The position numbers and the translations under genes are program-made. Below, in pieces: positions 3,127 through 20,431 of a stretch of 20,431 nt of DNA (its first letter is position 1; every line of letters begins with the position of its first letter). A model generated the notes under the pieces. That model saw only the letters and a list, made by a program, of their open reading frames with translations, searched no databases and was not told where the DNA came from. Source of the stretch: a virus; IMG/VR virus record IMGVR_UViG_3300032285_002228, positions 1-20,431 of that record; one strand, written 5' to 3'.

Positions 3127-3900
3127 CTAATATCCAAATCTAGATTTATAAAAACCATGTAAATTTTGAATATCCGTTAAAGTAAGTACTCCATTGTATA
3201 CTTTAACAAATCCAATATCTGCTGTTTGAACCTCTGTACTTGTGGTAGCATTACTAAATCTACCAAACAATCTTATTCCGTTAAAACCACCTACAAATGC
3301 TGCTGTTTTATAAACGGCTACTGGGGCGGTATTGGTTGCTATATACAGTTGAGAAAGATTTGATCCATTTCCTGTACCCCAAATAAAGTTCCAGTTAGTA
3401 TCAGCTGCATCACTACTTAAGTTAACAGTACCACCAGGATAAAAAACATTTTTGTATGCGAGAGAAGAAAAATAACTACCTAATAACCAATCAGGGGTTG
3501 CTGAATTAGCATTTAATAATCTACCTTGTGCTGTTGCAGATAATTTATATGCCATGAAAACAGTATATTGCTGAGTACTATTACTATAATCTATACCCGC
3601 GCTGTATAATTGATCTGTTGTATTACCAGTAGATTTTGTAAATACTCCCCCATTATTACTATTCCATGCCATACTTGCATTTGCATTAGTCATTGTTATA
3701 GTATACGCTCCTGTTCCTGCAATAGTAGATCCATTTACAGGGAGTGCAGAATAGTTAGCGGCGTCTAAATCAAGAACTAAAGTTGCTGATACAACCGGAG
3801 CTGCCGTTGATTTTATAGACATTGAAAAATTACCTCTGCTATTTATATTAATCAATGAAATATTACCTGAATTATTTTTATTTAAAAACGTTATTGGCAT
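3127..3900 (-). CDS. LamG / concanavalin-like lectin-fold tail protein
   Basis: This 257-residue protein has the look of a concanavalin A-like (LamG-type) beta-sandwich. LVLDLDAANYSALP near residues 41-55 is the usual opening strand of phage-borne LamG domains. The end, IGFVKVYNGVLTLTDIQ then FYKSRFGY, matches the typical closing strand and helix (a YN-x-x-L...EI...N-x-x-x-RFG-like pattern). Such domains bind glycans or form tips and decorations on tail fibres. The first 40 residues (MPITFLNKNNSGNISLININ...) probably attach it to a partner. Its ATG overlaps the stop of the 993-aa fibre gene as TAATG, which suggests translational coupling and a joint assembly, perhaps as the fibre's distal adhesin. 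A head-decoration role is the main alternative. I see no signal peptide or membrane segment. Confidence 0.75.
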   Translation of the reverse strand: MPITFLNKNNSGNISLININSRGNFSMSIKSTAAPVVSATLVLDLDAANYSALPVNGSTIAGTGAYTITMTNANASMAWNSNNGGVFTKSTGNTTDQLYSAGIDYSNSTQQYTVFMAYKLSATAQGRLLNANSATPDWLLGSYFSSLAYKNVFYPGGTVNLSSDAADTNWNFIWGTGNGSNLSQLYIATNTAPVAVYKTAAFVGGFNGIRLFGRFSNATTSTEVQTADIGFVKVYNGVLTLTDIQNLHGFYKSRFGY

Positions 3901-6881
3901 TATAAAAGATTAGTTATTGTTCTTACTGTCCAACCTGCTGGAGCAGTTACATTTAAGTTTACATTATTTCCTGATAATACTGTTGCAAATGATGCTACTG
4001 AAGTACTTCCTAAATCACTAGTAATTACTTCTGTAAATCTTATTGCACTACCGCTCCATATAGACATTATTTGACCAGCTCTAGCATTTGATGATGATAT
4101 TATTGCGTAGTTATAAAATGCAGAAATATAAGATCCAGTGCCAAGAGAAGATATAGTCGTTGTTCCTGCTACTGTTATAGAGGATGTATTATTAAATTGA
4201 CTATATCCTATATTTAATGTCTGAACATTTGTCGATCCTGTTACTGTTAAACTTCCAGTAATAACAGCGCTTCCTGAATACGGAAATGATGATGCGTTTG
4301 CTACGTAAGATGCAGTTAGAGCATATGATGAAGTTAATATTGAATTATATCCATTAGGTCCATAAACTCCTGATGATGATACATAACTTGCGCTGGTAAC
4401 AGATGATGTTAAGAAATATGATGCGGTAGCAGCATAACTAGCAGAAGTCACTGAACTAGTTACAAAATAAGATGCAGTTAAACTATTTTGAGCCCAACTT
4501 GCTGTTCCAAAAAGAGATCCTGTTATTGACCCAGATACACTTAAACTACCTGTTATAATAACTGATCCAGTTATTGTAGCGGATCCTGAAACTATTATTG
4601 TATCTGCATTAGAAGAGAATATCGTTGTTCCACTACTACCTGAAATAGATAATGATCCTGTTATTGAAACTGGTTGATTTAGTGGATTTAGATAAGAAGC
4701 AGTTCCAGCATAAGATGCACTAGTTACTGAACTAGTTACAAAATAAGATGCAGTAGCCGCATAAGAAGCACTAGTTACTGAACTAGTTAAGAAATTAAGA
4801 GCCCAAGAACTTGTATATGCATAAGAAGCTGTTAATATAGATCCTAATAACACTGATGCGGTTCCTGCATAAGAAGCGCTAGTTACTGAACTAGTTATAA
4901 AATAAGATGCTGTTGCAGAATAACTAGCAGATGTTACTGAGCTAGTTAAGAAATTAAGAGCCCAACTAGAAGTACTAGCATAAGACGAACTTAAACTATA
5001 TGAACTACTTAATGAATATGATGAAGATATAGCATTTGATGAGCTTATACTATACGATGAAGAAACTGCTCTTGAAGAAGAAATAGCAAACGATGAACTT
5101 AATGCTAAATTACCTCCTATAAAAATTGAACCTGTTACAAGTGAAGCTGTTGATGCATAACTTGCACTAGTTACTGAACTAGTTATAAAATAAGATGCGG
5201 TAGCAGCATAAGAAGCACTAGTTACCGAACTAGTTACAAAATAAGAAGCTGTTAAACTATTTTGAGCCCAACTAGCTGTGCCAAAAAGAGATCCTGTAAT
5301 TTTAGGAGCATTAACTACTCCTGTAACTGTTAAGGATGCAGTAATAGAAACAGATCCTGTAAATTGATGTGTATTAGTTAATAAGCTACCAAATTTGCTT
5401 GATCCAGTTACATATTCTTGAGATGCTGTAATAGTTTGTACTACAAGAGTTCTAGCAGTTATAGTATTATTAATAAGTAAATTTGAAGCTGTTATATTTC
5501 TATTTACTTTTAAATCAGTATCTATCTCTAATGAACCTGTTATATTATGAAATCCATTTGGATTTAATTCTAATTTTCTATTCGCATCTGAATCTAAACC
5601 TCCAGCAAAAAATTGAATAGGATAATTTGAAGCATTACCTATATGAAGATGTTGACCTGTTGAATATAGGTAAGCTGAGTTAGGACCTCCAAGTACACCT
5701 GTAAAATTCTCACTATTAATACCTAAATCAATATAATTAGTGGTTTCATTACCATTATTTGCAGTTGCAACAATATCTGACGATGCATTTATGCCTTGAT
5801 TTGTATTATATATATTAATCTGTGCATAGTTATTTAGATTAGCTTTACCGCTCATAATATTGAAAGACGTCGGATGCGGTTGCCATACATATAAAGCCTC
5901 AGGATTATCTGCGGTATTATAATCTTGGTTTATAATAACACTATAACCCCCAGATTGATAGATCGAACTACTTGCTAAACTATTTGGAGTATCAAAATAT
6001 GCAATGTGATTTGTAGCTCCATTTATATTAGTAGAATAACTTGAACTTAAAGAATTTTTTGCCCAACTTGCAGTACCAAATAAAGAAGAAGACGCTGATA
6101 TAGTTATACCGCCGTCTGTAATTAGATTTCCATCGGGCTTAAACGACCAAAGTTTTGATGTAGAACTATTATTACTGTCTGTGGATGTATTAAAAATATA
6201 AGTTCCAGTATTATCTGAAGCAATTCCAGAATTTATAACGCTATTTGGTACTTGTTGTGTTTGGAAACTTAATTCTGTACTAGTATCACTAAAGGCAACA
6301 AAATATTCTCCAGTAGGTGTTGATATTTGATTCCTTACAAGTATTGAACCTGTTACATCAATATTATTAACAAAACTAACTTTATTAGGATATACTAATA
6401 ATCCATTTTCACCTTGATATCCATTTACTTGTAATCCAATACTTTTATTTGATTCATTATGAAAAACAAATCTACCATCATCCCAAGCAAAATAGCCCAT
6501 TACTGCATCTGTCGTGGAAAATGAATCATTATAGAATCTTTCTAACCATGGATACTGATCTACTGCGTGTATATCTGCTAGAGTTGGATAGTCTGGATTT
6601 ACTGAAGCCGCATTCCCACCATATTTTAATATACCATTACTTCCTGATATTGTTTGTATTCCAGTAAATATATTTGAGCTAGTTACTGCAAATGAGCCTG
6701 TATCAATATTAGATTGGCCACTACCAAGTGTAACAATTTCTACACCAGATGAACCTGATTTTTTCATGAAGGCTAAGCCATCATACGTATTGAGAGCTAT
6801 CTCTCCAAAATCTAAGGAAGCTGTGTCAGGAGTTTTACCTGGCACCGATGACCGGCGCAGTTTAAGATACTGGTTAGACAT
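3900..6881 (-). CDS. Long repeat-rich tail fibre protein (993 aa)
   Basis: The first 55 residues (LKLRRSSVPGKTPDTASLDF then GEIALNTYDGLAFMKK) match a widespread N-terminal attachment region of phage tail fibres: a KRS-x-VPGK-x-P...L-x-GE-x-A-x-NT-x-DG-x-x-F-x-K pattern. The rest is a Ser/Thr/Ala/Tyr-rich shaft. Near residues 270-315 is an INGATNHIAYF...IYQS module shared with the left fibre. Residues 515-590 carry ITGSLFGTASWAQNS and TASY/TSSVTS units, 593-640 are eight hexads of the type A-(L/I/V)-S-S-S-Y, then more TSSVTS units follow, with a GVYGPNGYNSIL module near 840-860. The C-terminal 80 residues lack repeats and may be a trimerisation or tip region. The 257-aa lectin-like protein is translationally coupled behind it. 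The ATG at 6881 gives the full N-terminal domain. Role inferred: host-recognition fibre. Confidence 0.85.
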   Translation of the reverse strand: MSNQYLKLRRSSVPGKTPDTASLDFGEIALNTYDGLAFMKKSGSSGVEIVTLGSGQSNIDTGSFAVTSSNIFTGIQTISGSNGILKYGGNAASVNPDYPTLADIHAVDQYPWLERFYNDSFSTTDAVMGYFAWDDGRFVFHNESNKSIGLQVNGYQGENGLLVYPNKVSFVNNIDVTGSILVRNQISTPTGEYFVAFSDTSTELSFQTQQVPNSVINSGIASDNTGTYIFNTSTDSNNSSTSKLWSFKPDGNLITDGGITISASSSLFGTASWAKNSLSSSYSTNINGATNHIAYFDTPNSLASSSIYQSGGYSVIINQDYNTADNPEALYVWQPHPTSFNIMSGKANLNNYAQINIYNTNQGINASSDIVATANNGNETTNYIDLGINSENFTGVLGGPNSAYLYSTGQHLHIGNASNYPIQFFAGGLDSDANRKLELNPNGFHNITGSLEIDTDLKVNRNITASNLLINNTITARTLVVQTITASQEYVTGSSKFGSLLTNTHQFTGSVSITASLTVTGVVNAPKITGSLFGTASWAQNSLTASYFVTSSVTSASYAATASYFITSSVTSASYASTASLVTGSIFIGGNLALSSSFAISSSRAVSSSYSISSSNAISSSYSLSSSYSLSSSYASTSSWALNFLTSSVTSASYSATASYFITSSVTSASYAGTASVLLGSILTASYAYTSSWALNFLTSSVTSASYAATASYFVTSSVTSASYAGTASYLNPLNQPVSITGSLSISGSSGTTIFSSNADTIIVSGSATITGSVIITGSLSVSGSITGSLFGTASWAQNSLTASYFVTSSVTSASYAATASYFLTSSVTSASYVSSSGVYGPNGYNSILTSSYALTASYVANASSFPYSGSAVITGSLTVTGSTNVQTLNIGYSQFNNTSSITVAGTTTISSLGTGSYISAFYNYAIISSSNARAGQIMSIWSGSAIRFTEVITSDLGSTSVASFATVLSGNNVNLNVTAPAGWTVRTITNLL
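4719..5234 (-). repeat. Repeated 18-bp hairpin-capable unit encoding TSSVTS
   Basis: The coding-strand sequence ACTAGTTCAGTAACTAGT has perfect 7-base arms (ACTAGTT/AACTAGT) around a 4-base loop. It occurs at 4719-4736, 4770-4787 and 5166-5183, with one-base variants at 4879-4896 (arms of 6) and 5217-5234 (loop changed). A further exact copy lies in the other fibre gene at 1734-1751. Each encodes TSSVTS. Confidence 0.8.
4962..5105 (-). repeat. Eight perfect-register SSS hexapeptide repeats in the 993-aa fibre
   Basis: Residues 593-640 split exactly into eight 6-residue units: ALSSSF, AISSSR, AVSSSY, SISSSN, AISSSY, SLSSSY, SLSSSY, ASTSSW. The second position is always small or aliphatic, positions 3-5 are almost all Ser, and position 6 is usually aromatic. 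A strict period of six suggests a regular beta-structured shaft segment. The codons vary between units, so the pattern is kept at protein level. Confidence 0.85.
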
Positions 6882-10850: not shown

Positions 10851-12524
10851 TTAGATAACGTTAGTATCAGCAACTAATACTAATCCGTAGTATTCCGGAC
10901 GAACCATAGTCATTGCGTAACGAGTCATGATACCTTTTCTTGGAGTGAAGGTATTTGGATCGTACACAAGAGGAGTCATGATCAATGGAACATATGGAGA
11001 GTAAACAGCACCACATTCAAGGAATTGATTACCACGGAATCCAAGAAGGATAGCGTTCTCAACCATGTACGGGTTTTTGTATACTTTGTAACGGCTATTT
11101 AATTGGCCGATTTTCTGAACACCAAATGCATATTTCATAGTATCTGCTGCACCGTCTGTATCAGCTGCAAATCCAGGGATTGATTCAAGGATAGTAGCGA
11201 TAGTTGGAGAAACAACCATGAAGTTAGCACCACCACGTAATGTACGTTGGTGAATGATGTTAGATACTTTTTGAAGTTTAATTCCAAGAGTTTGGAACCA
11301 ACTCATTTGAGTATAATAAACACCAGCAGTGTTTGAAGTAAATCCAGCAGAAGCATTTGTACTTATTTGGTTACCAACCTTTGCAGACCAGTACTCAATA
11401 GTTGGAGAATTTTGGATTAACATGTCTAAAATTTCAAGATCAATCTCAAGAGAGATGTGCTCAGAAAGAAGACCAGTTAATTCAGCTTCAGCATCAAGTG
11501 AATGGTAAGCGTTAAGGTCTTGTGCAAATTCCGGAGTCCATTGTGCTTTTAACTTACGAGTTTTAGCAGAAATGGTTTGGCTCTTCATTTGAACATTGAT
11601 ATCAGGGATAACAATAGATGTGTTAGAAAGACTGTTTGGAACTGAAGGAGTACCTGAACGATCTTCAAATGCACCCATTGCATTGAAATCAGTAGCCTTA
11701 TTATAGTTGATTACATATGATGATACTGCACTACCTGAGAATCCTTTGTTAACAAAGAAGTTAATAAAAACACCAGCAGCACTTGAAGAAAGCTGTGTAA
11801 ACTGTTGTAAGTTATCAGAAGCTAGAATTGTAGAACCTGAAGAAATGATAAATGCGCGAACTCCATCAGGATTGTAAGAAGGTAGTGATGAAGTAGGTAT
11901 TTGCAATTTACCAATTTGGTTAGCAACTGCAGAAGCAGAATAGTTTGCATCATAATCTAAATCAAACCATGTTGCAGAAGATGAAGCAAATCCTGTTGCG
12001 TTACCTAAAATTGAAGCACTGAATTGGTTCAATGAGAAACCAAAACGGCCAGCGCCATAAAGACCACCAGCAGCAGCATTACCAAAGTTTGCAGTTTGAG
12101 TACCGTAAACTGAATCACCGGTAGTGAATGGAGCTTTTGTATTTCCGTATTGGAAATCAAGGAAGAATACTAAACCAGCAGGTAAGTTCATTGGTTGAAC
12201 TGAAACGAATTCCTTCGCAGCAATTTGACCAAAGATTTTACGAACTAATGGAAGAGCAACGCCAGCCCATTGTTCACCAGTACCAGGAGTGAAAGTTGCA
12301 CCAGTACCAGCAGCAAGACCGCCGTTTGTTTGAGAAGCTTCGATTACTAATTGCTTAGCTTGATTCTCAAGCATTAACGACATGTTATTTTTGTCGTAAT
12401 CTTGAAGGCCTTCGAGTAGACCAGATTTTGCCCATTTCTTAGACAATTTCTGAGCAACACCATGTTGATCAGAGAATGCTGTTTGGGCAGATTCGGTTAG
12501 TAAAGATTGTACTAAATTTGCCAT
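10851..12524 (-). CDS. 23: Major capsid protein (T4 gp23-like)
   Basis: This 557-residue protein forms the hexameric lattice of the head. It carries the gp23 signatures: FVSVQPMNLPAGLVF (residues 106-120; T4 VQPMNSPTGQVF), the segment TRKLKAQWTPEFAQDLNAYH with DAEAELTGLLSEHISLEID after it (T4 SRQLKAAYSIELAQDLRAVH, DADAELSGILATEI), and near the end YSPYVPL and a KGIMTRYAM segment (T4 YAPYVAL, KTRYGI). In T4 the protease removes 65 residues after LTE. At the equivalent place here VIE|AS gives a predicted cut after Glu62, and a better consensus match SLLTE|SA lies at residue 11. The leader before the ATG is A-rich (AAATAAAAAACA) with no Shine-Dalgarno. The gene follows the scaffold gene by 15 bases and ends at a strong terminator, consistent with very high expression. 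Confidence 0.95.
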   Translation of the reverse strand: MANLVQSLLTESAQTAFSDQHGVAQKLSKKWAKSGLLEGLQDYDKNNMSLMLENQAKQLVIEASQTNGGLAAGTGATFTPGTGEQWAGVALPLVRKIFGQIAAKEFVSVQPMNLPAGLVFFLDFQYGNTKAPFTTGDSVYGTQTANFGNAAAGGLYGAGRFGFSLNQFSASILGNATGFASSSATWFDLDYDANYSASAVANQIGKLQIPTSSLPSYNPDGVRAFIISSGSTILASDNLQQFTQLSSSAAGVFINFFVNKGFSGSAVSSYVINYNKATDFNAMGAFEDRSGTPSVPNSLSNTSIVIPDINVQMKSQTISAKTRKLKAQWTPEFAQDLNAYHSLDAEAELTGLLSEHISLEIDLEILDMLIQNSPTIEYWSAKVGNQISTNASAGFTSNTAGVYYTQMSWFQTLGIKLQKVSNIIHQRTLRGGANFMVVSPTIATILESIPGFAADTDGAADTMKYAFGVQKIGQLNSRYKVYKNPYMVENAILLGFRGNQFLECGAVYSPYVPLIMTPLVYDPNTFTPRKGIMTRYAMTMVRPEYYGLVLVADTNVI

Positions 12525-12539
12525 TGTTTTTTATTTAAT

Positions 12540-13727
12540 TTATTTTCTTTTTGGAATACCAGCAAGTTTTTGCCATCTGTTAATAAATGGATCTGCATCC
12601 ACTATATTACCTTTTGGAGCCATACCTGCGGCTTGTGAAGCAAAACCAATTGATTCTTTAAGTTGAGCTTTCTTAGTTTCAGTAAAAGACTCTTTCAAAG
12701 TTTCATAAGTGTTCTTAACTTCTGCTACATTACTAGCACGATCAAGAGCATTAATAACTTTTACTTTTTGAGATTCAGTTAAAGACTTAGATTTAAACAA
12801 CTTATTCATGTAAAGATACTTTGCATTAAGAAGATTAACTTCTTGAAGATTTTCACGAAGAGTCTCGATAGTAGCTTTAGCTTCTTCAAGTTCGTTTTCT
12901 TCTTCTAGAGGTTGATTTTTAGCAATCTTTTTGTAATCTGATTCTTTTTCAGTTGCAGCTACAGCGGATTTCTTTTTTTCATCCATTGTAGGATGCTGAT
13001 GTCCATGAGCGTATCCACCACCAGGGAAATCTACATCATGTACTTCTTCTGCTCCTTCAGTTTCTTCAGCTTCAAGTTCTGCTAAGATTTCATCAAGAGA
13101 AATTTCAGATTCAGCTTCTGCATCAGCATCTGCTTCGTCAGAAGGGATATCCATTGACATGTCAGCTTTATCAGCATTTACAGATTGAAGAACTTTTTTA
13201 AGATCTCCTAAAGTAATATCAATCACCTTAGTATCATCTCCGATTTCTTCAGTCTCGTCTGCTTCTTCAGCACCCATGCCATCTTCTTCCTCTTCTTCTC
13301 CTTCCTCTTCTTCAGCTTCTTCATTCATAGACTCGTATAAACCTTCTTCTTCCATGTCTTCTTCCATTGGATTGTGCTGAGCTAAATTTTTATAGCCAGT
13401 TTCATGTTTTGTGACATCAGTAGCAGAAAGTTCTTCTAACTGAGCAAGAATTTCTTCAAGTTCAGCTTCATTGATGTCCATGTTTTCTTCCATACCTACT
13501 GGAGATACGGATTCATCTTCCATGCCATCATTTGCGGCATCAGTTGCTAAGTCTGTAGCAGCCATGTCGTCTTCTTCTAGTGTATCGAACTCTTCAGAGA
13601 GTTTAATACGCATCATTTCTTGGATCTTAGGCTCAAATGCTTCTTCTAAAGCGGCTTTTGCGTTGGCCATTGCACTAGCGCGTAAAGCTTTAGCATCGAG
13701 GATTGCATCCTGGTAAAGGTTACTCAT
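12540..13727 (-). CDS. 22: Prohead scaffold / core protein (T4 gp22-like)
   Basis: This 395-residue, extremely acidic protein has low-complexity Glu/Asp runs (residues 121-165 and 196-228). It has the gp22 core signature NLLNAKYLYMNKLF (298-311), then LTESQKVKVINALDRAS. It should form the internal core that shapes the prohead and is then degraded by the protease. Sites fitting (L/I)-x-E followed by a small or polar residue include LYE|S (130-132), LTE|S (316-318), LKE|S (344-346) and LKE|S (356-358). There is an internal duplication: ETGYKNLAQHNPMEE (109-123) and ESDYKKIAKNQPLEE (262-276). The C-terminus, WQKLAGIPKRK, repeats the LAGI motif at the N-termini of three neighbouring proteins. Its place directly before gp23 is that of T4. 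A long structured leader precedes it. Confidence 0.9.
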   Translation of the reverse strand: MSNLYQDAILDAKALRASAMANAKAALEEAFEPKIQEMMRIKLSEEFDTLEEDDMAATDLATDAANDGMEDESVSPVGMEENMDINEAELEEILAQLEELSATDVTKHETGYKNLAQHNPMEEDMEEEGLYESMNEEAEEEEGEEEEEDGMGAEEADETEEIGDDTKVIDITLGDLKKVLQSVNADKADMSMDIPSDEADADAEAESEISLDEILAELEAEETEGAEEVHDVDFPGGGYAHGHQHPTMDEKKKSAVAATEKESDYKKIAKNQPLEEENELEEAKATIETLRENLQEVNLLNAKYLYMNKLFKSKSLTESQKVKVINALDRASNVAEVKNTYETLKESFTETKKAQLKESIGFASQAAGMAPKGNIVDADPFINRWQKLAGIPKRK

Positions 13728-13874
13728 TTGTAAAAAATGTTGATTGTAATTGCTTATTAGATTTGGGAAGCAATATAGGATTGTAATCTAGTAGTACTAT
13801 ATTAGAATTAGTACATATGCAATAAATATCTAGATTTACTGCAAAAATAAATATTTACAAAAAATATTTTATAT
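13728..13874 (-). promoter_or_regulatory. Structured leader/promoter region of the scaffold-capsid unit
   Basis: This is the longest gap in the window (147 bases). On the coding strand it carries ATATTTAT twice, at 13854-13847 and 13829-13822, starting 25 bases apart. Nearer the gene are two inverted repeats: GTACTA/TAGTAC (13814-13809 with 13799-13794) and ATTGCTT/AAGCAAT (13774-13768 with 13755-13749). A direct repeat GATTGTAAT occurs, read on the plus strand, at 13742-13750 and 13779-13787. A doubled promoter followed by a structured 5' untranslated region would fit the most highly expressed transcript of the phage; function is inferred. Confidence 0.5.
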
Positions 13875-14471
13875 TTAAGCCGCAGCTACTTGTTTAGCTA
13901 ATTTAGCCATATCTACGGCACCAATTAAAGCATCAGTTCCGTGTAATGCTTTCTCTATCCAATGTATAGCATCAGAAACTTCTAATCCACTTTTAATACC
14001 TGTAGCTGCTAACATTAAAAAATAAATAAGTCTTGCATGATCATGAAGTGCTGATGTTTCATCATTTACATCTTGATTTTCATATGCAGTAGGAAATACT
14101 TTTTTTAGTATTTCTCCTATTACTACTAAATAAGATTTTTCAAGTTCATGTCCCCAATGAGCTAAAGCATTTCCTACAACAGTACCTTTCTTTTGATCTT
14201 TTTGAAAGAAAGAAGATATCCAATTAACGCCTTTGCCTACTGCTTGTAAAACTCCAGGAGCTGCTATAATACCTGTTAAAACAACAGATTCATCTAATTC
14301 ACCATCTTTTGGAGATGGTTTTAAAGACGGAATTACAGATTTTAAACCTGCTAAAGCTTGTTTTAAACCTTGCTCAGCATCTTTGTCAGCTATTGGATCA
14401 GTTTTTTCTTCTGCTTCTTTTATAATTCCTGCTAATTGCTGAAATCGTTTTGCTTCATTAATATATTTCAT
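13875..14471 (-). CDS. Putative internal head protein with LAGI targeting tag (198 aa), family not recognised
   Basis: I chose the ATG at 14471 (MKYINEAKRFQQLAGIIKEA), four bases after the preceding stop. A longer frame to 14543 would overlap the previous gene and hide the motif. The first 19 residues contain QQLAGI (11-16) and end in IKE|A (17-20), which fits the T4 prohead protease rule, so the tag is probably removed in the prohead. The mature part has a hydrophobic stretch near residues 62-78 (VVLTGIIAAPGVLQAV) and another near 148-158 (LIYFLMLAATG), with an amphipathic helical look throughout. This suggests a protein carried in the head and possibly membrane-active after ejection; that is inference. 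No enzymatic motif is visible. It sits between the protease and scaffold genes, where core and internal proteins are expected. Confidence 0.7.
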   Translation of the reverse strand: MKYINEAKRFQQLAGIIKEAEEKTDPIADKDAEQGLKQALAGLKSVIPSLKPSPKDGELDESVVLTGIIAAPGVLQAVGKGVNWISSFFQKDQKKGTVVGNALAHWGHELEKSYLVVIGEILKKVFPTAYENQDVNDETSALHDHARLIYFLMLAATGIKSGLEVSDAIHWIEKALHGTDALIGAVDMAKLAKQVAAA

Positions 14472-14475
14472 ATTA

Positions 14476-14931
14476 TTAGTATGTTCCTGCTTCTTCAAAT
14501 TTCCAATGCAATGAACCATCTTTGGCATCAACAGAAAATTCACTAGGATGATTTTTTACATAACTATCTGCATAATTAGCTAAGGTTTTTGAAAAGTCTC
14601 CAGAAGATACACCACTTCCTGGTGCTAACGCTAGTTTTTTAGTTTTAGCATTGATTATGTCTCCTAAATCTGATTTTTGTGTATCATTCATTTTGTCTAA
14701 AGACTTACCAAGAATATTTTCATAATACTCAGTTTGAGCTGCTTTATCAGTTTCAGCTTCTTTATCCATTTGGTATACTTTAGTACCGCCTGCAATAGTA
14801 CCTAATGTAATTAGTCCTGCTAATAACCACTCTTTAAATCCCTCATCTAAGTTTTCTTCATTTATCTGAGATTCGTTAATTATGCCAGCTAATTGCTGCA
14901 TTCTTTTAATTTCGTTGAGTTGTTGTTTCAT
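14476..14931 (-). CDS. Putative internal head protein with LAGI targeting tag (151 aa), family not recognised
   Basis: The N-terminus MKQQLNEIKRMQQLAGIINE shares the QQLAGI core with the 198-aa and 310-aa proteins. It is followed by INE|S (18-21), a match to the T4 gp21 cleavage rule. After an acidic linker (ENLDEG) comes one hydrophobic segment near residues 35-50 (WLLAGLITLGTIAGGT), long enough to cross a membrane, and then a soluble, charged part ending in KFEEAGTY. A tag, predicted cleavage and one membrane segment suggest a small protein packaged in the prohead, perhaps for ejection; no known family is recognised. It starts five bases after the protease stop. The leader lacks a clear Shine-Dalgarno. 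Confidence 0.7.
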   Translation of the reverse strand: MKQQLNEIKRMQQLAGIINESQINEENLDEGFKEWLLAGLITLGTIAGGTKVYQMDKEAETDKAAQTEYYENILGKSLDKMNDTQKSDLGDIINAKTKKLALAPGSGVSSGDFSKTLANYADSYVKNHPSEFSVDAKDGSLHWKFEEAGTY

Positions 14932-14936
14932 AGTAT

Positions 14937-15569
14937 CTATTTAATGCAGCAAACGCCACTTTGTGAGCAAATAATATCAGAAATCATTCTATTAATCTTA
15001 GACGTATTTTTATTTTGTTGTATATTTCTATCAACTGATTCTCTTAATCCTCCAACTGGTTTCATGTATGCACCATAAGTTGATGGTGTAGAAACAAAAT
15101 CCCAGCATATAAGATCAAGATCATCTTCTACTTGTACTAGGCCTTCACCAATAGGAGAAACAGAACCCATAGCTCTAGATGAAATTCCTACTGTAATATT
15201 ATTTTTAAATAATTCTTTTAATATATTACCAGATGGTGTTGGAAGTATTTCAATATCTCCATAGAGATCTTTACCATCCCACCACATCTTAACTATATTA
15301 TGACTAACATTTTTAAGATTAATAACACTAGACTCAGGATGATCTAATTCTCCTAATGCTCTATTTTCTGCAATAGGGCCTGCTATATATTTTTGAACTT
15401 GTTCAAATAGAATTTGATATGGATATATTCTATGATTAGCATTAGGCTTATCACAAGCCTGAACTAAACCAGATACCACCATATTACCATTAGCTAATCT
15501 TCTAGCCTCAGTTAATGATTGAGGAAGTGGGCTAAATGCACTGTATTCTATTAAAAGTTGCTTATTCAT
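14937..15569 (-). CDS. 21: Prohead maturation protease (T4 gp21-like)
   Basis: This serine protease of the T4 prohead (herpesvirus-assemblin-like fold) cleaves scaffold and shell proteins at (L/I)-x-E sites. Its signatures are ANHRIYPYQIL (residues 44-54; T4 NGRIYP), RALGELDHPESS (70-81) with the likely catalytic His77, MWWDGKDLYGDIEILPTPSG (95-114), and TVGISSRAMGSV (126-137) with the nucleophile at Ser130 or Ser131. The VSTPSTYGAYM segment (159-169) ends the catalytic domain. Possible self-processing sites are LTE|A (19-22) and LRE|S (175-178), which would release flanking propeptides as in T4. The C-terminal tail is unusual: CSQSGVCC (201-208), three cysteines in eight residues. At 210 aa it is close to T4 gp21 (212). 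Confidence 0.93.
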   Translation of the reverse strand: MNKQLLIEYSAFSPLPQSLTEARRLANGNMVVSGLVQACDKPNANHRIYPYQILFEQVQKYIAGPIAENRALGELDHPESSVINLKNVSHNIVKMWWDGKDLYGDIEILPTPSGNILKELFKNNITVGISSRAMGSVSPIGEGLVQVEDDLDLICWDFVSTPSTYGAYMKPVGGLRESVDRNIQQNKNTSKINRMISDIICSQSGVCCIK

Positions 15570-15570
15570 A

Positions 15571-16653
15571 TTATACTACTGATACTTTTTTTATCTGTGA
15601 TTTAGCCGATGGTTCTAAAGAATTTATGTAGCTAGTAGCACTACTATCAGTTCCAAATATACCTCCTGGTATATTAGTTCCTTTTTGTGTTTTTAACATC
15701 ACTAGCTCTTTTAAAGCTTTCATTTTCTTTTTATCATGCTTATACTTATCAATATATTTTTTGATAGTTTCAGGATCTAATGGCTTTTTCCAGTGCTCAG
15801 GATCTGTAAGCATTCCTCCAAATACTTTAGGATTTTCTTTATCTCTTTGTGCCCAAGCTGCGTCTAATTCATCTTTAGTAAGAGCCTCGTCTTTTTGAGT
15901 TTCTTTAGCTTTTTCTGTATGTTTATCAACTACATTTACTTGGTAGTCTTTTAAAGATCCGTCTTTCATTTCAATAGTGAAAGTACTACCAATAATTTCT
16001 TTTATTGTGCCTTCTCCATCAGGAGTATGCACTTCAGCACCTACATTATAAGTAGGATGCACATCTTCTTTAACTAAATCTTTTTTTTTAAGAGAAGAAA
16101 CAAGTTCATCAAGAACTGCTTCTTTCATGATCTCTACACCTTTTGGCTTACCTTTTTTATTTTCTTTAGTGCTAACTTTAGTATTAGCTTTATGGTGAGT
16201 ATGACCTTTAACTTTCTTCATTTCACGAGCCTTGTCATTAAAATTATCTTTTTTAACAGGTTCCATTTGAAGTTTAGAATCCTCTTTTTCTATCTCATCG
16301 GCATTAGCAAACATGTCCACTTCGTAGAAGTTTGGATCCTTTATTAAATTTTTAGCTGCTTTATTAAGAGCATTCACATAAGAATCATTAGTTAATTCTT
16401 TCTCTTTTGAAAGAATAGACTGAATTCCTTTTTTAAGAAAGTATGGATTAACAAGATCAACTGCTGGATCTATTTGTACATTTGCATCCATCTCACGGAT
16501 AATTCCTTTATTTTTAAGTATTTTTACGGCATCATCATAAGATGTTACATTAGTTACCCAAGGTAAATTAGTATCTCTACGAACTTCGTATAGAAATTTA
16601 TCACGGCTTACTGTTCCGGATTTATGCTTCTTATATAATTCTAGTGTTGTCAT
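15571..16653 (-). CDS. Lys-rich head-region protein with SH3/KOW-like segment (360 aa), family not recognised
   Basis: Residues 1-55 (TLELYKKHKSGTVSRDKFLY, then NLPWVTNVTSYDDAVKILKN) look like a compact conserved domain. Residues 130-180 are very Lys-rich and low-complexity (KKVKGHTHHKANTK). A segment near 200-243 (YNVGAEVHTPDGEGTIKEI...FTIEMKDGS) resembles a small SH3/KOW-like beta barrel: 'G-x-x-V-x-x-x-x-G-x-G-x-I' followed by 'V/I-x-x-x-D-G'. The C-terminal third is helical and charged (DKYKHDKKKMKALKELVMLK) and ends in KKVSVV. I infer a core or DNA-contacting internal head component from composition and from its place next to the protease; no enzymatic motif is seen. It begins 11 bases after a 41-aa gene, and the candidate promoter octamer ends only four bases before the ATG, so if transcription starts there the message would be nearly leaderless. 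Confidence 0.8.
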   Translation of the reverse strand: MTTLELYKKHKSGTVSRDKFLYEVRRDTNLPWVTNVTSYDDAVKILKNKGIIREMDANVQIDPAVDLVNPYFLKKGIQSILSKEKELTNDSYVNALNKAAKNLIKDPNFYEVDMFANADEIEKEDSKLQMEPVKKDNFNDKAREMKKVKGHTHHKANTKVSTKENKKGKPKGVEIMKEAVLDELVSSLKKKDLVKEDVHPTYNVGAEVHTPDGEGTIKEIIGSTFTIEMKDGSLKDYQVNVVDKHTEKAKETQKDEALTKDELDAAWAQRDKENPKVFGGMLTDPEHWKKPLDPETIKKYIDKYKHDKKKMKALKELVMLKTQKGTNIPGGIFGTDSSATSYINSLEPSAKSQIKKVSVV

Positions 16654-16665
16654 GCTTATAAATAT
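16654..16665 (-). promoter_or_regulatory. Candidate promoter octamer directly before the 360-aa gene
   Basis: ATATTTAT at 16665-16658 begins on the last base of the 41-aa gene's stop codon and ends four bases before the next ATG. The extended string TCTAATATTTATAA is shared with the gap at 6882-6940. The very short distance argues either for leaderless translation or against a promoter role for this copy. Confidence 0.3.
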
Positions 16666-16790
16666 TAGACTTTTCCTTGTCCACGATAGTTTCTTTCTTT
16701 TCTATCATGTTTATTAAAAGATTTCTTTGCAACTCCTTTTTTCTTTTTACCAAAACTAATTTTAATTAAACTACTTGCAGCTTTTGCCAT
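16665..16790 (-). CDS. Small highly basic protein (41 aa), family not recognised
   Basis: An open frame from ATG at 16790 to TAA at 16667-16665 encodes 41 residues. It opens MAKAASSLIKISFGKKKKG, continues VAKKSFNKHDRKERN and ends YRGQGKV. Fourteen of the 41 residues are Lys or Arg, so the peptide is very basic and could bind DNA or counter the acidic scaffold. Its position among head-core genes, between a LAGI-tagged protein and the 360-aa protein, and its tight spacing (16 bases after one gene, 11 before the next) support a real gene. T4 has small prohead-core genes (67, 68) in the same portal-to-protease interval, but I see no sequence match. From memory, short basic proteins ending in a YRGQG-like motif recur in related phages; I cannot verify this here. 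Confidence 0.7.
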   Translation of the reverse strand: MAKAASSLIKISFGKKKKGVAKKSFNKHDRKERNYRGQGKV

Positions 16791-16806
16791 GACTAATTAA
16801 TTTTTA

Positions 16807-17739
16807 TTATTTTATTGTTGCAGCTCTTCTTTCTATTTCAGCTTTGTCCATATATGGATTAGTTTTAGAATCTTGCCCTCTTAACTTTGCAATGGCTTTA
16901 TCAATTCTATTTAGATCACGTCCATATCTATCAGCGATTGGCCCACCTTCTGGCTCCGCCTCTTGTTCCATATCACTCATTAATTCAGCTCTGTGCTTTA
17001 AAAGTACTTTTATCTTTTCAGCATTTTTAATAGCTGGTGATATTGCTGGTTTTGATGATATTGAAGCTACTGGTTTTGGAGCATCTTTTTTAGCTCTCAT
17101 CGCCATTAAAATAGGATCGTTTCTATCTAGTTCTGATAAATTTTCATCATCTGATTGTGATGCCAATACTTTTGCGAAAGATCTAGCGTCATGTACTGGC
17201 TCTCCATATAATTCTACCGTTGGTTCATCATAGTCATCTGATGTATTTATACGAATTGCTCCATCTTGATAATCTAAATCAAGTACTAATGTACTATAAT
17301 TTTTACCTACTGCTGTGCCACCTCTTATTCCTTTACCTGCTTTTTCTGCCCAACCTGCAACTTTATTTACAAGAGAAGATATACCTTTTCTTTTTGCAAA
17401 ATCTTTTATATTACTTGGTACATAAGCTTCACTTATTTCATCTTCTTCAATAGGACCATGATCATCGTCTGGATTATCTGATCCATAGTCATCGTCGTCA
17501 TAGAATGAATCAGCTTCCTCAGCATCTAGCATATCATTAACTATATCCGCCATTTCATTGAAAGCACCTAATAGCCCTTGTTTTGAAGCTGTTGGTATAG
17601 TAGAATCTGTTGATATATTACGATTTAAATTACTAAGTATAGCCTCTAATTTTTCAGCTGCTGATTTAGAACTAACCTCGTTAATATTCTCTTTAAGTAG
17701 ACCTGCTAATTTTTGTAATTGATATTTTTCGTTTTTCAT
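16807..17739 (-). CDS. LAGL-tagged acidic prohead-core protein candidate (310 aa), family not recognised
   Basis: The N-terminus KYQLQKLAGLLKE carries the tag seen in the 151- and 198-aa proteins, with a protease-type site LKE|N at residues 15-18. A second consensus site, ISE|A (102-105), closes an acidic linker (FYDDDDYGSDNPDDDHGP) and may release the rest of the chain. Residues 108-190 (SNIKDFAKRKGISSLVNKVA, then YSTLVLDLDYQDGAIRINTS, then VELYGEPV) look like a folded alpha/beta domain. The C-terminal 90 residues are helical and charged (KIKVLLKHRAELMSDMEQEA). I infer a prohead-core or packaged internal protein processed by gp21. The ATG overlaps the preceding stop as TAATG. Confidence 0.75.
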   Translation of the reverse strand: MKNEKYQLQKLAGLLKENINEVSSKSAAEKLEAILSNLNRNISTDSTIPTASKQGLLGAFNEMADIVNDMLDAEEADSFYDDDDYGSDNPDDDHGPIEEDEISEAYVPSNIKDFAKRKGISSLVNKVAGWAEKAGKGIRGGTAVGKNYSTLVLDLDYQDGAIRINTSDDYDEPTVELYGEPVHDARSFAKVLASQSDDENLSELDRNDPILMAMRAKKDAPKPVASISSKPAISPAIKNAEKIKVLLKHRAELMSDMEQEAEPEGGPIADRYGRDLNRIDKAIAKLRGQDSKTNPYMDKAEIERRAATIK

Positions 17740-19355: not shown

Positions 19356-20431
19356 TTAATCTAAACCCTCAATTATATTCTCATCACTTAAAAGATTAGA
19401 CTCTTCAAAAAGTTTAACCTTTCTTCCAACTTTATTCATTTTGGAGAACATGCTCCTATTTTTTAAATATTCGGTCATTGTGTTTTCAAGCGCTAAAGCA
19501 GACCCGCCTTTAAAATTTGATTTCATATTATCTTCACCAGTTTCACTAGAATCCATTCTATCTGCACTACCAATAGGATCACGACCGAACGCAGACCTAT
19601 CAGTATCTTTAATTGAGCTAAAGCTTTTAGGACGTCCTGGTTTATTCTCATCGTAGCCATAAGGTGCATTAAGAACCTCGTCTTCTTTACCTCCATATAG
19701 ACTTGCTATTTGGTGTGGAGTTCCGTATGCTTGGCCTGATTCTGAAGGATCGTTTCCTTCTTCAGCAATTTGTTTATATCTAAAGTCCCTTTTCTTATCT
19801 TCAACTATTTGATCTTCAAGTTCTCCATATTGATCTTCTGAGAAATGGAATATCTTATCATAGATAAAGTCTCTTGGTAATAAAGATCCTTCCATTGCTT
19901 GTTTAGCAAGATCTATTTTCTCTTTGAATAATGCAATCCTTTCTTGATCGTAAATAATAGATGGATTAGTTAAGGAAAGAGTAAAATTAGCAGCACTTTC
20001 ATTTGTATATCCATGTGCATACAAATGTACTAATCCAATTTTAGTTAGTTCAGATATAAGAATTCTTTGAAGTCTTTCTACTGTTCTAGCAAAACGAATA
20101 TCTTCAGCAGCAAGTGTAGCTTTACCAGTTAAATCTTTTTCATAACCCATAAAAGCTTTAGGAATCTTAAGAGCAGCAAATAACTTCTCTCTAAAGTAAG
20201 CCACATCTTCAATACCATTATATTCTAGACCTTTAGCAGTATCTATTTTAGTAGATGTATCATTTCCTCTAACAGGAATAAAGAAATCCTCTAATAAATT
20301 TTGCTGATTGTATTTAAGATTATATTGACCTGTTTGAGGATCCATAAGAGGAGTTTTCTTCATCTTATTAATCATCTTTTGGATATAGTTATCTACTTCT
20401 GCTGGAGGAATTGCTCCTACGTTAACATAAA
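19356..20431 (-). CDS. 20: Portal protein (T4 gp20-like), N-terminus cut off by the window edge
   Basis: The frame is open from the right edge (first complete codon at 20429) to the stop at 19356, giving 357 residues; an internal ATG at 20375 is not the true start. The portal is the dodecameric ring at the head vertex through which DNA is packaged and ejected. Alignment by eye with T4 gp20: YVNVGAIPPAEVDNYIQKM (T4 YVDVGNMPARKAAEHMQ), the segment FFIPVRGNDTSTKIDTAKG with YNGIEDVAYFREKLFAALKI after it (T4 DYWLQRRDG...EVDTLPG...MEDIRWFRQALYMALRV), then IPKAFMG and a LTNPSIIYDQERIALFKEKI region. T4 gp20 has 524 residues, so about the first third is missing here. The C-terminal tail (MNKVGRKVKLFEESNLLSDE) is acidic and phage-specific. 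Confidence 0.93.
   Translation of the reverse strand, partial: YVNVGAIPPAEVDNYIQKMINKMKKTPLMDPQTGQYNLKYNQQNLLEDFFIPVRGNDTSTKIDTAKGLEYNGIEDVAYFREKLFAALKIPKAFMGYEKDLTGKATLAAEDIRFARTVERLQRILISELTKIGLVHLYAHGYTNESAANFTLSLTNPSIIYDQERIALFKEKIDLAKQAMEGSLLPRDFIYDKIFHFSEDQYGELEDQIVEDKKRDFRYKQIAEEGNDPSESGQAYGTPHQIASLYGGKEDEVLNAPYGYDENKPGRPKSFSSIKDTDRSAFGRDPIGSADRMDSSETGEDNMKSNFKGGSALALENTMTEYLKNRSMFSKMNKVGRKVKLFEESNLLSDENIIEGLD

Follow-up and report, generated by a model that had tools for sequence, protein, structure and literature searches.

The window analyzed here (the whole stretch of 20,431 nucleotides, 20.4 kb) is an uncultured virus record in IMG/VR, IMGVR_UViG_3300032285_002228, and its minus strand encodes a T4-type head cluster. 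The cluster consists, in this order, of the portal protein gp20, two unassigned proteins of 283 and 242 amino acids (aa), a 310-aa protein, an unassigned 360-aa protein, the prohead protease gp21, proteins of 151 and 198 aa, the scaffold, the major capsid protein gp23 and a PhoH-like protein, so that gp20 and gp23 are found on the two flanks of the gp21 gene. The PhoH-like label was given by analogy with the annotated gene order of the Flavobacterium phage immuto. Three of these proteins (310, 151 and 198 aa) begin with a short peptide around the residues LAGI, referred to below as the LAGI tag, which is the subject of this study.

The N-termini of the three proteins, which are otherwise unrelated, read xQ(K/Q)LAG(I/L) followed by (I/L)xE, and QKLAGI also forms residues 386-391 of the scaffold, which ends WQKLAGIPKRK. 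These strings, the scaffold end and the predicted mature termini Ser21, Ala20 and Asn18 had been listed in a first-pass annotation of the same DNA and were exact; the gp21-family protease that it invoked is encoded in the window (PF03420), and gp21 relatives were present in the other loci (Table 1). When nine head-region proteins were shuffled, 0.003 terminal matches to [QK]xLAG[IL] were expected per window and four were observed. Full-length homologues of the 151-aa protein (in L238 and L375) retain the tag, and homologues of the 310-aa protein retain it in diverged form, e.g. NLQRIAGILSE/A. A second (I/L)xE (LNE) lies upstream of the LAGI core in the 151-aa protein. In the AlphaFold model of the 198-aa protein (mean predicted local distance difference test score, pLDDT, 77), the confident core starts at residue 26 and the tag is a low-confidence helix outside it, with the predicted cut between the two. 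Neither this model nor that of the scaffold had a Foldseek match at E ≤ 0.001. One homologue of the 198-aa protein (L392:3305-3931, in G020) has LILETLSE/A at its N-terminus instead of LAGI.

Table 1 Features of the head cluster in the window (predicted cuts and the docking role are putative)
Feature	Position	Strand	Basis
Portal gp20 (C-terminal part)	19356..20375	-	PF07230 E 2.2e-34
310-aa tagged protein	16807..17739	-	Open reading frame (ORF); without Pfam assignment, weak PHROG match
Tag of 310-aa protein, MKNEKYQLQKLAGLLKE, predicted cut before Asn18 (after E17)	17689..17739	-	
Prohead protease gp21 (Peptidase_S77), predicted tag remover	14937..15569	-	PF03420 E 1.7e-24; phrog_207 E 2.6e-49
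151-aa tagged protein, hydrophobic segment behind tag	14476..14931	-	ORF
Tag of 151-aa protein, MKQQLNEIKRMQQLAGIINE, predicted cut before Ser21 (after E20)	14872..14931	-	
198-aa tagged protein, all-helical model, ATG at 14471	13875..14471	-	ORF; AlphaFold
Tag of 198-aa protein, MKYINEAKRFQQLAGIIKE, predicted cut before Ala20 (after E19)	14415..14471	-	
Scaffold (gp22-type core protein), 395 aa, Glu-rich, ends FINRWQKLAGIPKRK	12540..13727	-	Position between gp21 and gp23; homologues in relatives
Scaffold C-terminal docking peptide RWQKLAGI, residues 384-391 (putative docking)	12555..12578	-	
Major capsid protein gp23, predicted propeptide end LVIE62/A63	10851..12524	-	PF07068 E 2e-74

The scaffold of the window is of the gp22 type in being acidic, in lying between gp21 and gp23 and in being rich in protease sites; no family model of Pfam or PHROG matched it above cut-off. 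The motif was found at the C-terminus of 61 of 61 non-redundant scaffold homologues, including those of the cultured phages immuto and Mel-JY01, and the scaffold end pointed out in the first-pass annotation thus recurs across the clade. These scaffolds nearly always end with LA(G/N)(I/L) plus a few residues, and their bodies diverge to about 28 % identity. When 32 scaffolds were aligned, R384, A389 and G390 were invariant and Q386, L388 and I391 were conserved in at least 90 %. The AlphaFold model shows a helix (residues 380-388) behind a lower-confidence linker, and residues 381-390 have a pLDDT of 84. In Rhodothermus phage RM378, the protein encoded upstream of gp23 is a probable scaffold and ends ERIKRLAGL, and a 484-kb uncultured phage has the same ending in the form LADIS; the scaffold ends of Pelagibacter phage HTVC008M and T4 differ from the LAGI motif. 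Some probable scaffolds are annotated as DNA polymerase phi-like or hypothetical (NC_055915 gp067 of immuto, DNA polymerase phi-like; PP395634 WWT39314.1; NC_004735 NP_835729.1), and all three end with LAG(I/L) plus at most two residues.

C-terminal LAGI peptides were also found on non-scaffold proteins of 641 aa (L337), 761 aa (L331) and 205-230 aa (L354, L349 and L363). In L337 the scaffold is encoded by a gene separate from that of the 641-aa protein, and most C-terminal tags have (I/L/V)xE upstream. A 798-aa protein (L308:7913-10309) carries the peptide at both ends, and L273 encodes a large tagged protein of 840 aa.

The terminal position of the motif was general. In the window and 80 relatives selected for their gp21 similarity (about 1 Mb in all), the C-terminus of a scaffold or the N-terminus of an ORF accounted for 84 of 86 matches to [QKERLM]xLAG[ILV]. 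A scan of IMG/VR DNA with the back-translated pattern ExxRxQxLAGI gave at least 120 stretches, compared with five for a control with L and A exchanged and about four expected by chance (our own estimate from base frequencies). A broad variable-gap DNA pattern was dropped as its matches were mostly out of frame, and the fixed-frame pattern was used instead. Among the fetched loci, 128 of 139 matches lay at most 25 codons after an ATG and five lay at C-termini. These counts come from metagenomic assemblies with gene starts set by rule, and the loci behind them were partly chosen by tag presence.

A position-specific scoring matrix (PSSM) collected 182 unique N-tagged proteins. With the tag removed, clustering by BLASTP only sorted them into about 128 families that have nothing but the tag in common. 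In an alignment of 123 representatives the mean column identity was 5 %, and only M1, E7, R10, Q12, L14, A15, G16 and E20 were near-invariant; the search itself partly determined E7, R10, Q12, L14, A15 and G16, but not E20. The LAG core mostly starts 13-15 residues past the Met. Shared ancestry only, by duplicated genes or by a mobile 5' segment encoding a functionless peptide, would agree with the higher similarity of tags within one locus (0.71) than overall (0.56), as expected of a copied 5' module. However, the residues R, L, A, G and I are constant although their codons differ widely, so it is the peptide that is under selection; moreover, the motif is found again at C-termini and is retained where its flanks have diverged. 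We regard this explanation as extremely improbable.

A gp23-type capsid gene was present in all 10 of the 10 tested tag-bearing records of at least 79 kb. The number of tags per large record reached about seven (five in G018, four in G020, several in G024, one in G002 and two in immuto). In GTDB (84,980 bacterial and archaeal genomes; 257 Gb), the pattern occurred in 72 stretches, of which inspection confirmed only two as tags; these share a single 31.6-kb contig from a Fluviicola bin. This contig is probably phage, because the N-termini of both tagged proteins recur in the 222-kb IMG/VR record G024. A search of 50,697 phage records with the consensus tag (E ≤ 10) matched only Flavobacterium phages immuto. 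The cultured phage immuto (host Flavobacterium sp. LMO8) encodes two tagged proteins, KNV73_gp083 and gp230, with predicted mature N-termini at Ser23, which makes the proposed packaging testable. The motif search that the first-pass annotation had proposed as a check thus came out in its favor, with tags at termini, in gp23-type phages and almost absent from cellular genomes.

A cleavage-like site accompanies the tag. Within 12 residues past LAG, (I/L/V)xE was found in 121 of 127 family representatives, compared with 9-16 % in later 12-residue windows and 18.6 % at comparable positions of untagged ORFs. The residues past LAGI were unselected because the main scan ended at the I. About 95 % of independent families bear out the site that had been predicted from the window. 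P3 was I or L in 120 of 122 sites, and the P1' residue was usually S, N, E, G, I or A. In 103 of the 127 representatives, another (I/L/V)xE precedes the core or stands at its start. The gp23 proteins of the clade show LVIE or LVVE, followed by A or S, where their propeptide is expected to end.

When shared N-terminal motifs were searched without assuming LAGI, several genomes again yielded LAGI pairs among their best matches. Two more sets also appeared, MIKLxDILKE (DIL) and (N)FDLKKFLVEN (FDL), which we defined by regular expressions. The DIL class, MIKLx(D/N)(I/L)LxE, occurs on many unrelated proteins (G018, G019, G022, G023, immuto, L368, L384, L412, L416, L424 and others), and E is at residue 10 in 69 of 77 ORFs starting MIKLx[DNESK][IL][LIVM]. 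The FDL class, (N)FDLKKFLVENKLTxNS, was found in four immuto genes (NC_055915 1803, 103806, 117631 and 118632) and in G002, G003 and G040; the immuto proteins of this class are gp003, gp076, gp077 and gp092, and one of the four genes is annotated as cob(I)alamin adenosyltransferase. Homologous bodies carry different tags: a 5'(3')-deoxyribonucleotidase (NT5C) has LAGI in L326 and DIL in L384 (E 2e-18 between bodies), L240 LAGI pairs with L301 DIL (2e-27), L332 LAGI with immuto gp092 FDL (5e-25) and L278 DIL with L344 FDL (2e-22). That homologous bodies interchange them suggests a common job for the three tags.

These swaps bear on the idea that LAGI is a docking element for gp21, marking substrates rather than carrying proteins into the core. 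The cleavage-like sites on both sides of the core would suit it, and the T4 scaffold is a substrate of gp21 and is degraded by it (PMC9958956). However, gp23, a main gp21 substrate, has LVIE/A without LAGI, the DIL and FDL tags have a site of this kind although they lack LAGI, homologous cargo carries them in its place, and prohead entry of diverse proteins would be left unexplained. We therefore find gp21 docking quite improbable.

Pfam, PHROGs and PADLOC assigned very few of the 123 tagged families, and the weak PADLOC matches were treated as noise. The LAGI-tagged NT5C (L326:4707-5360) and its homologue tagged MIKLLDILKE (L384:14411-14917) suggest a packaged nucleotidase with alternative tags. 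A LAGI-tagged 2H phosphoesterase (L330:584-1147) scored just under the Pfam cut-off for Acb1, a protein acting against the cyclic-oligonucleotide-based antiphage signalling system (anti-CBASS), and is a candidate pre-loaded counter-defence protein. A zeta-toxin-fold kinase (PF06414) was found among the DIL-tagged proteins; L312:11013-11798 and L301:2694-3518 gave between them this fold, above cut-off, and a weak ADP-ribosyltransferase match. T4 Alt is a packaged ADP-ribosyltransferase. Elsewhere in the window, positions 3900-6881 encode a 993-aa protein, probably a tail fibre or a repeat protein related to one, with repeated SVTSASYxxTASY and ITGS units.

The bodies of tagged proteins, counted from 14 residues past LAG, contain (I/L)xE at 0.78 of the composition expectation (95 % confidence interval 0.66-0.88), compared with 1.23 in untagged genes; 2000 length-matched sets of untagged genes all gave higher values. 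[IL]xD, [IL]xK, [IL]xQ and [FM]xE were not depleted in these bodies. When the region just behind the tag was included the depletion weakened to 0.89, because second sites such as SQLNE lie there. DIL- and FDL-tagged bodies showed no clear (I/L)xE depletion. The scaffold has (I/L)xE at 1.76-fold over expectation. The depletion fits cargo proteins that would have to survive gp21. It is also relevant to whether the tagged proteins build the core or act in morphogenesis, as T4 gp67 and gp68 do, and are destroyed after recruitment rather than delivered. Several tagged genes do lie in the head operon between gp20 and gp22, and gp21 degrades the T4 core components gp67 and gp68 (PMC9958956). We nevertheless consider this role unlikely, as tagged bodies are depleted of (I/L)xE where the scaffold is enriched, and as cargo is highly diverse between genomes and includes some enzymes (NT5C, 2H phosphoesterase).

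We conclude that (E)xxR(M/L/F/W)(Q/K)xLA(G/N)(I/L) is likely a prohead-core targeting peptide of a clade of gp23-type myoviruses, which would use the docking peptide of the scaffold C-terminus and be removed by gp21. Packaging, cleavage, the binding partner and ejection of the tagged proteins are inferred here from sequence. The scaffold would bear the docking peptide at its C-terminus and unrelated cargo a copy at the N-terminus or, less often, the C-terminus. Cargo would co-assemble into the core through the contact used by the scaffold tail, probably on the inner face of gp23 or the scaffold lattice. gp21 would then cut at (I/L)xE beside the peptide, and mature cargo would be freed inside the head and ejected with the DNA into the next cell. 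Since the tag matches a conserved scaffold peptide, cargo would in the simplest model use the contact of the scaffold tail or compete for it. To judge from sequence, the docking peptide probably folds as a short helix with Gly or Asn as its cap, and the helix of the scaffold model ends at LAG. Covariation at the Q/K position between scaffold and tags was suggestive in G040 (RFKKLAG in both) and broken in G018, and is not claimed.

Several observations weigh against this conclusion. G001 and Mel-JY01 have the scaffold motif and no clear N-terminal tag by PSSM, the majority of tagged genes sit outside the head operon, and proteomic data on virions or proheads were looked for in the literature and not found. 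In T4, gp21 encounters mature gp23, and mature gp23 shows no depletion of (I/L)xE; the depletion in tagged bodies is therefore supportive, not diagnostic. The LAGI tag is unlike the T4 capsid targeting sequence (CTS), and the T4 gp22 tail (SVYAKVASRF) is also unlike this CTS, so that scaffold-tail mimicry is no general T4 rule. The location of most tagged genes outside the head operon, together with the hydrophobic stretch behind the tag in one tagged family, could also indicate an address elsewhere (membrane, tail or host compartment) with a coincidental scaffold match. This is very improbable in our view, as the same pattern is conserved at scaffold C-termini, the tag occurs in gp23 phages only within the records tested, and it is joined to a gp21-type site.

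Our judgement is evenly balanced on a broader proposal, a general code for loading the head interior in which three interchangeable terminal peptides with gp21-type sites would address a large, fast-changing set of effectors and the LAGI type would copy the scaffold C-terminal contact. If such a code exists, the tags of a genome list its injected proteins, many of which would probably be early host-takeover or counter-defence factors. The localisation of T4 scaffolding-core proteins was said to remain mysterious (PMC9958956, 2023), and a tag matching the conserved C-terminal peptide of the scaffold offers a concrete, mutable docking model. If prohead-core targeting by LAGI is true, a motif search predicts which proteins are injected by a large phage clade whose members are mostly uncultured, and phage heads could be loaded with proteins by means of a new peptide. 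The first-pass annotation knew of no description of the motif, and our literature search for the motif string likewise found nothing.

Among known systems, the N-terminal 30 residues of P1 DarB are enough to send a reporter to the capsid, a likeness to the LAGI tag as an N-terminal capsid targeting peptide that is drawn by description only. DarB is a single large protein of a different phage, and the part of the source drawn on here describes no shared scaffold peptide (PMC9024508). Ejection proteins of the SPN3US/phiKZ type have N-terminal propeptides cut by a prohead protease, and gp53 and gp54 have identical N-termini that were called reminiscent of T4 CTSs; in contrast to the LAGI tag, several of these propeptides exceed 100 residues, and a gp22 scaffold counterpart is not confirmed there (PMC5694885).

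The closest comparison is the CTS of T4 (IPI-IPIII, Alt), which is likewise a short N-terminal peptide on unrelated proteins with a gp21-type (I/L)xE site at its end. The internal proteins of T-even phages have been described as diverse defence proteins in which the CTS alone is conserved (PMC3012670). T4 IPII and IPIII start MKTYQEFIAE/A; the DIL tag is of similar length, the LAGI tag has no sequence similarity to MKTYQEFIAEA, and a strict regular expression for T4-CTS-like N-termini found few or none in these genomes. Reading the LAGI tag as the equivalent of the T4 CTS, as the first-pass annotation did, was supported with the amendment that the peptide is also used C-terminally and is one of at least three interchangeable N-terminal tag types. 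The LAGI tag is thus not a sequence member of the T4 CTS and, as far as can be judged from sequence, would work like it; unlike the CTS, it equals the scaffold C-terminus, occurs at C-termini as well and is spread over about 128 families.

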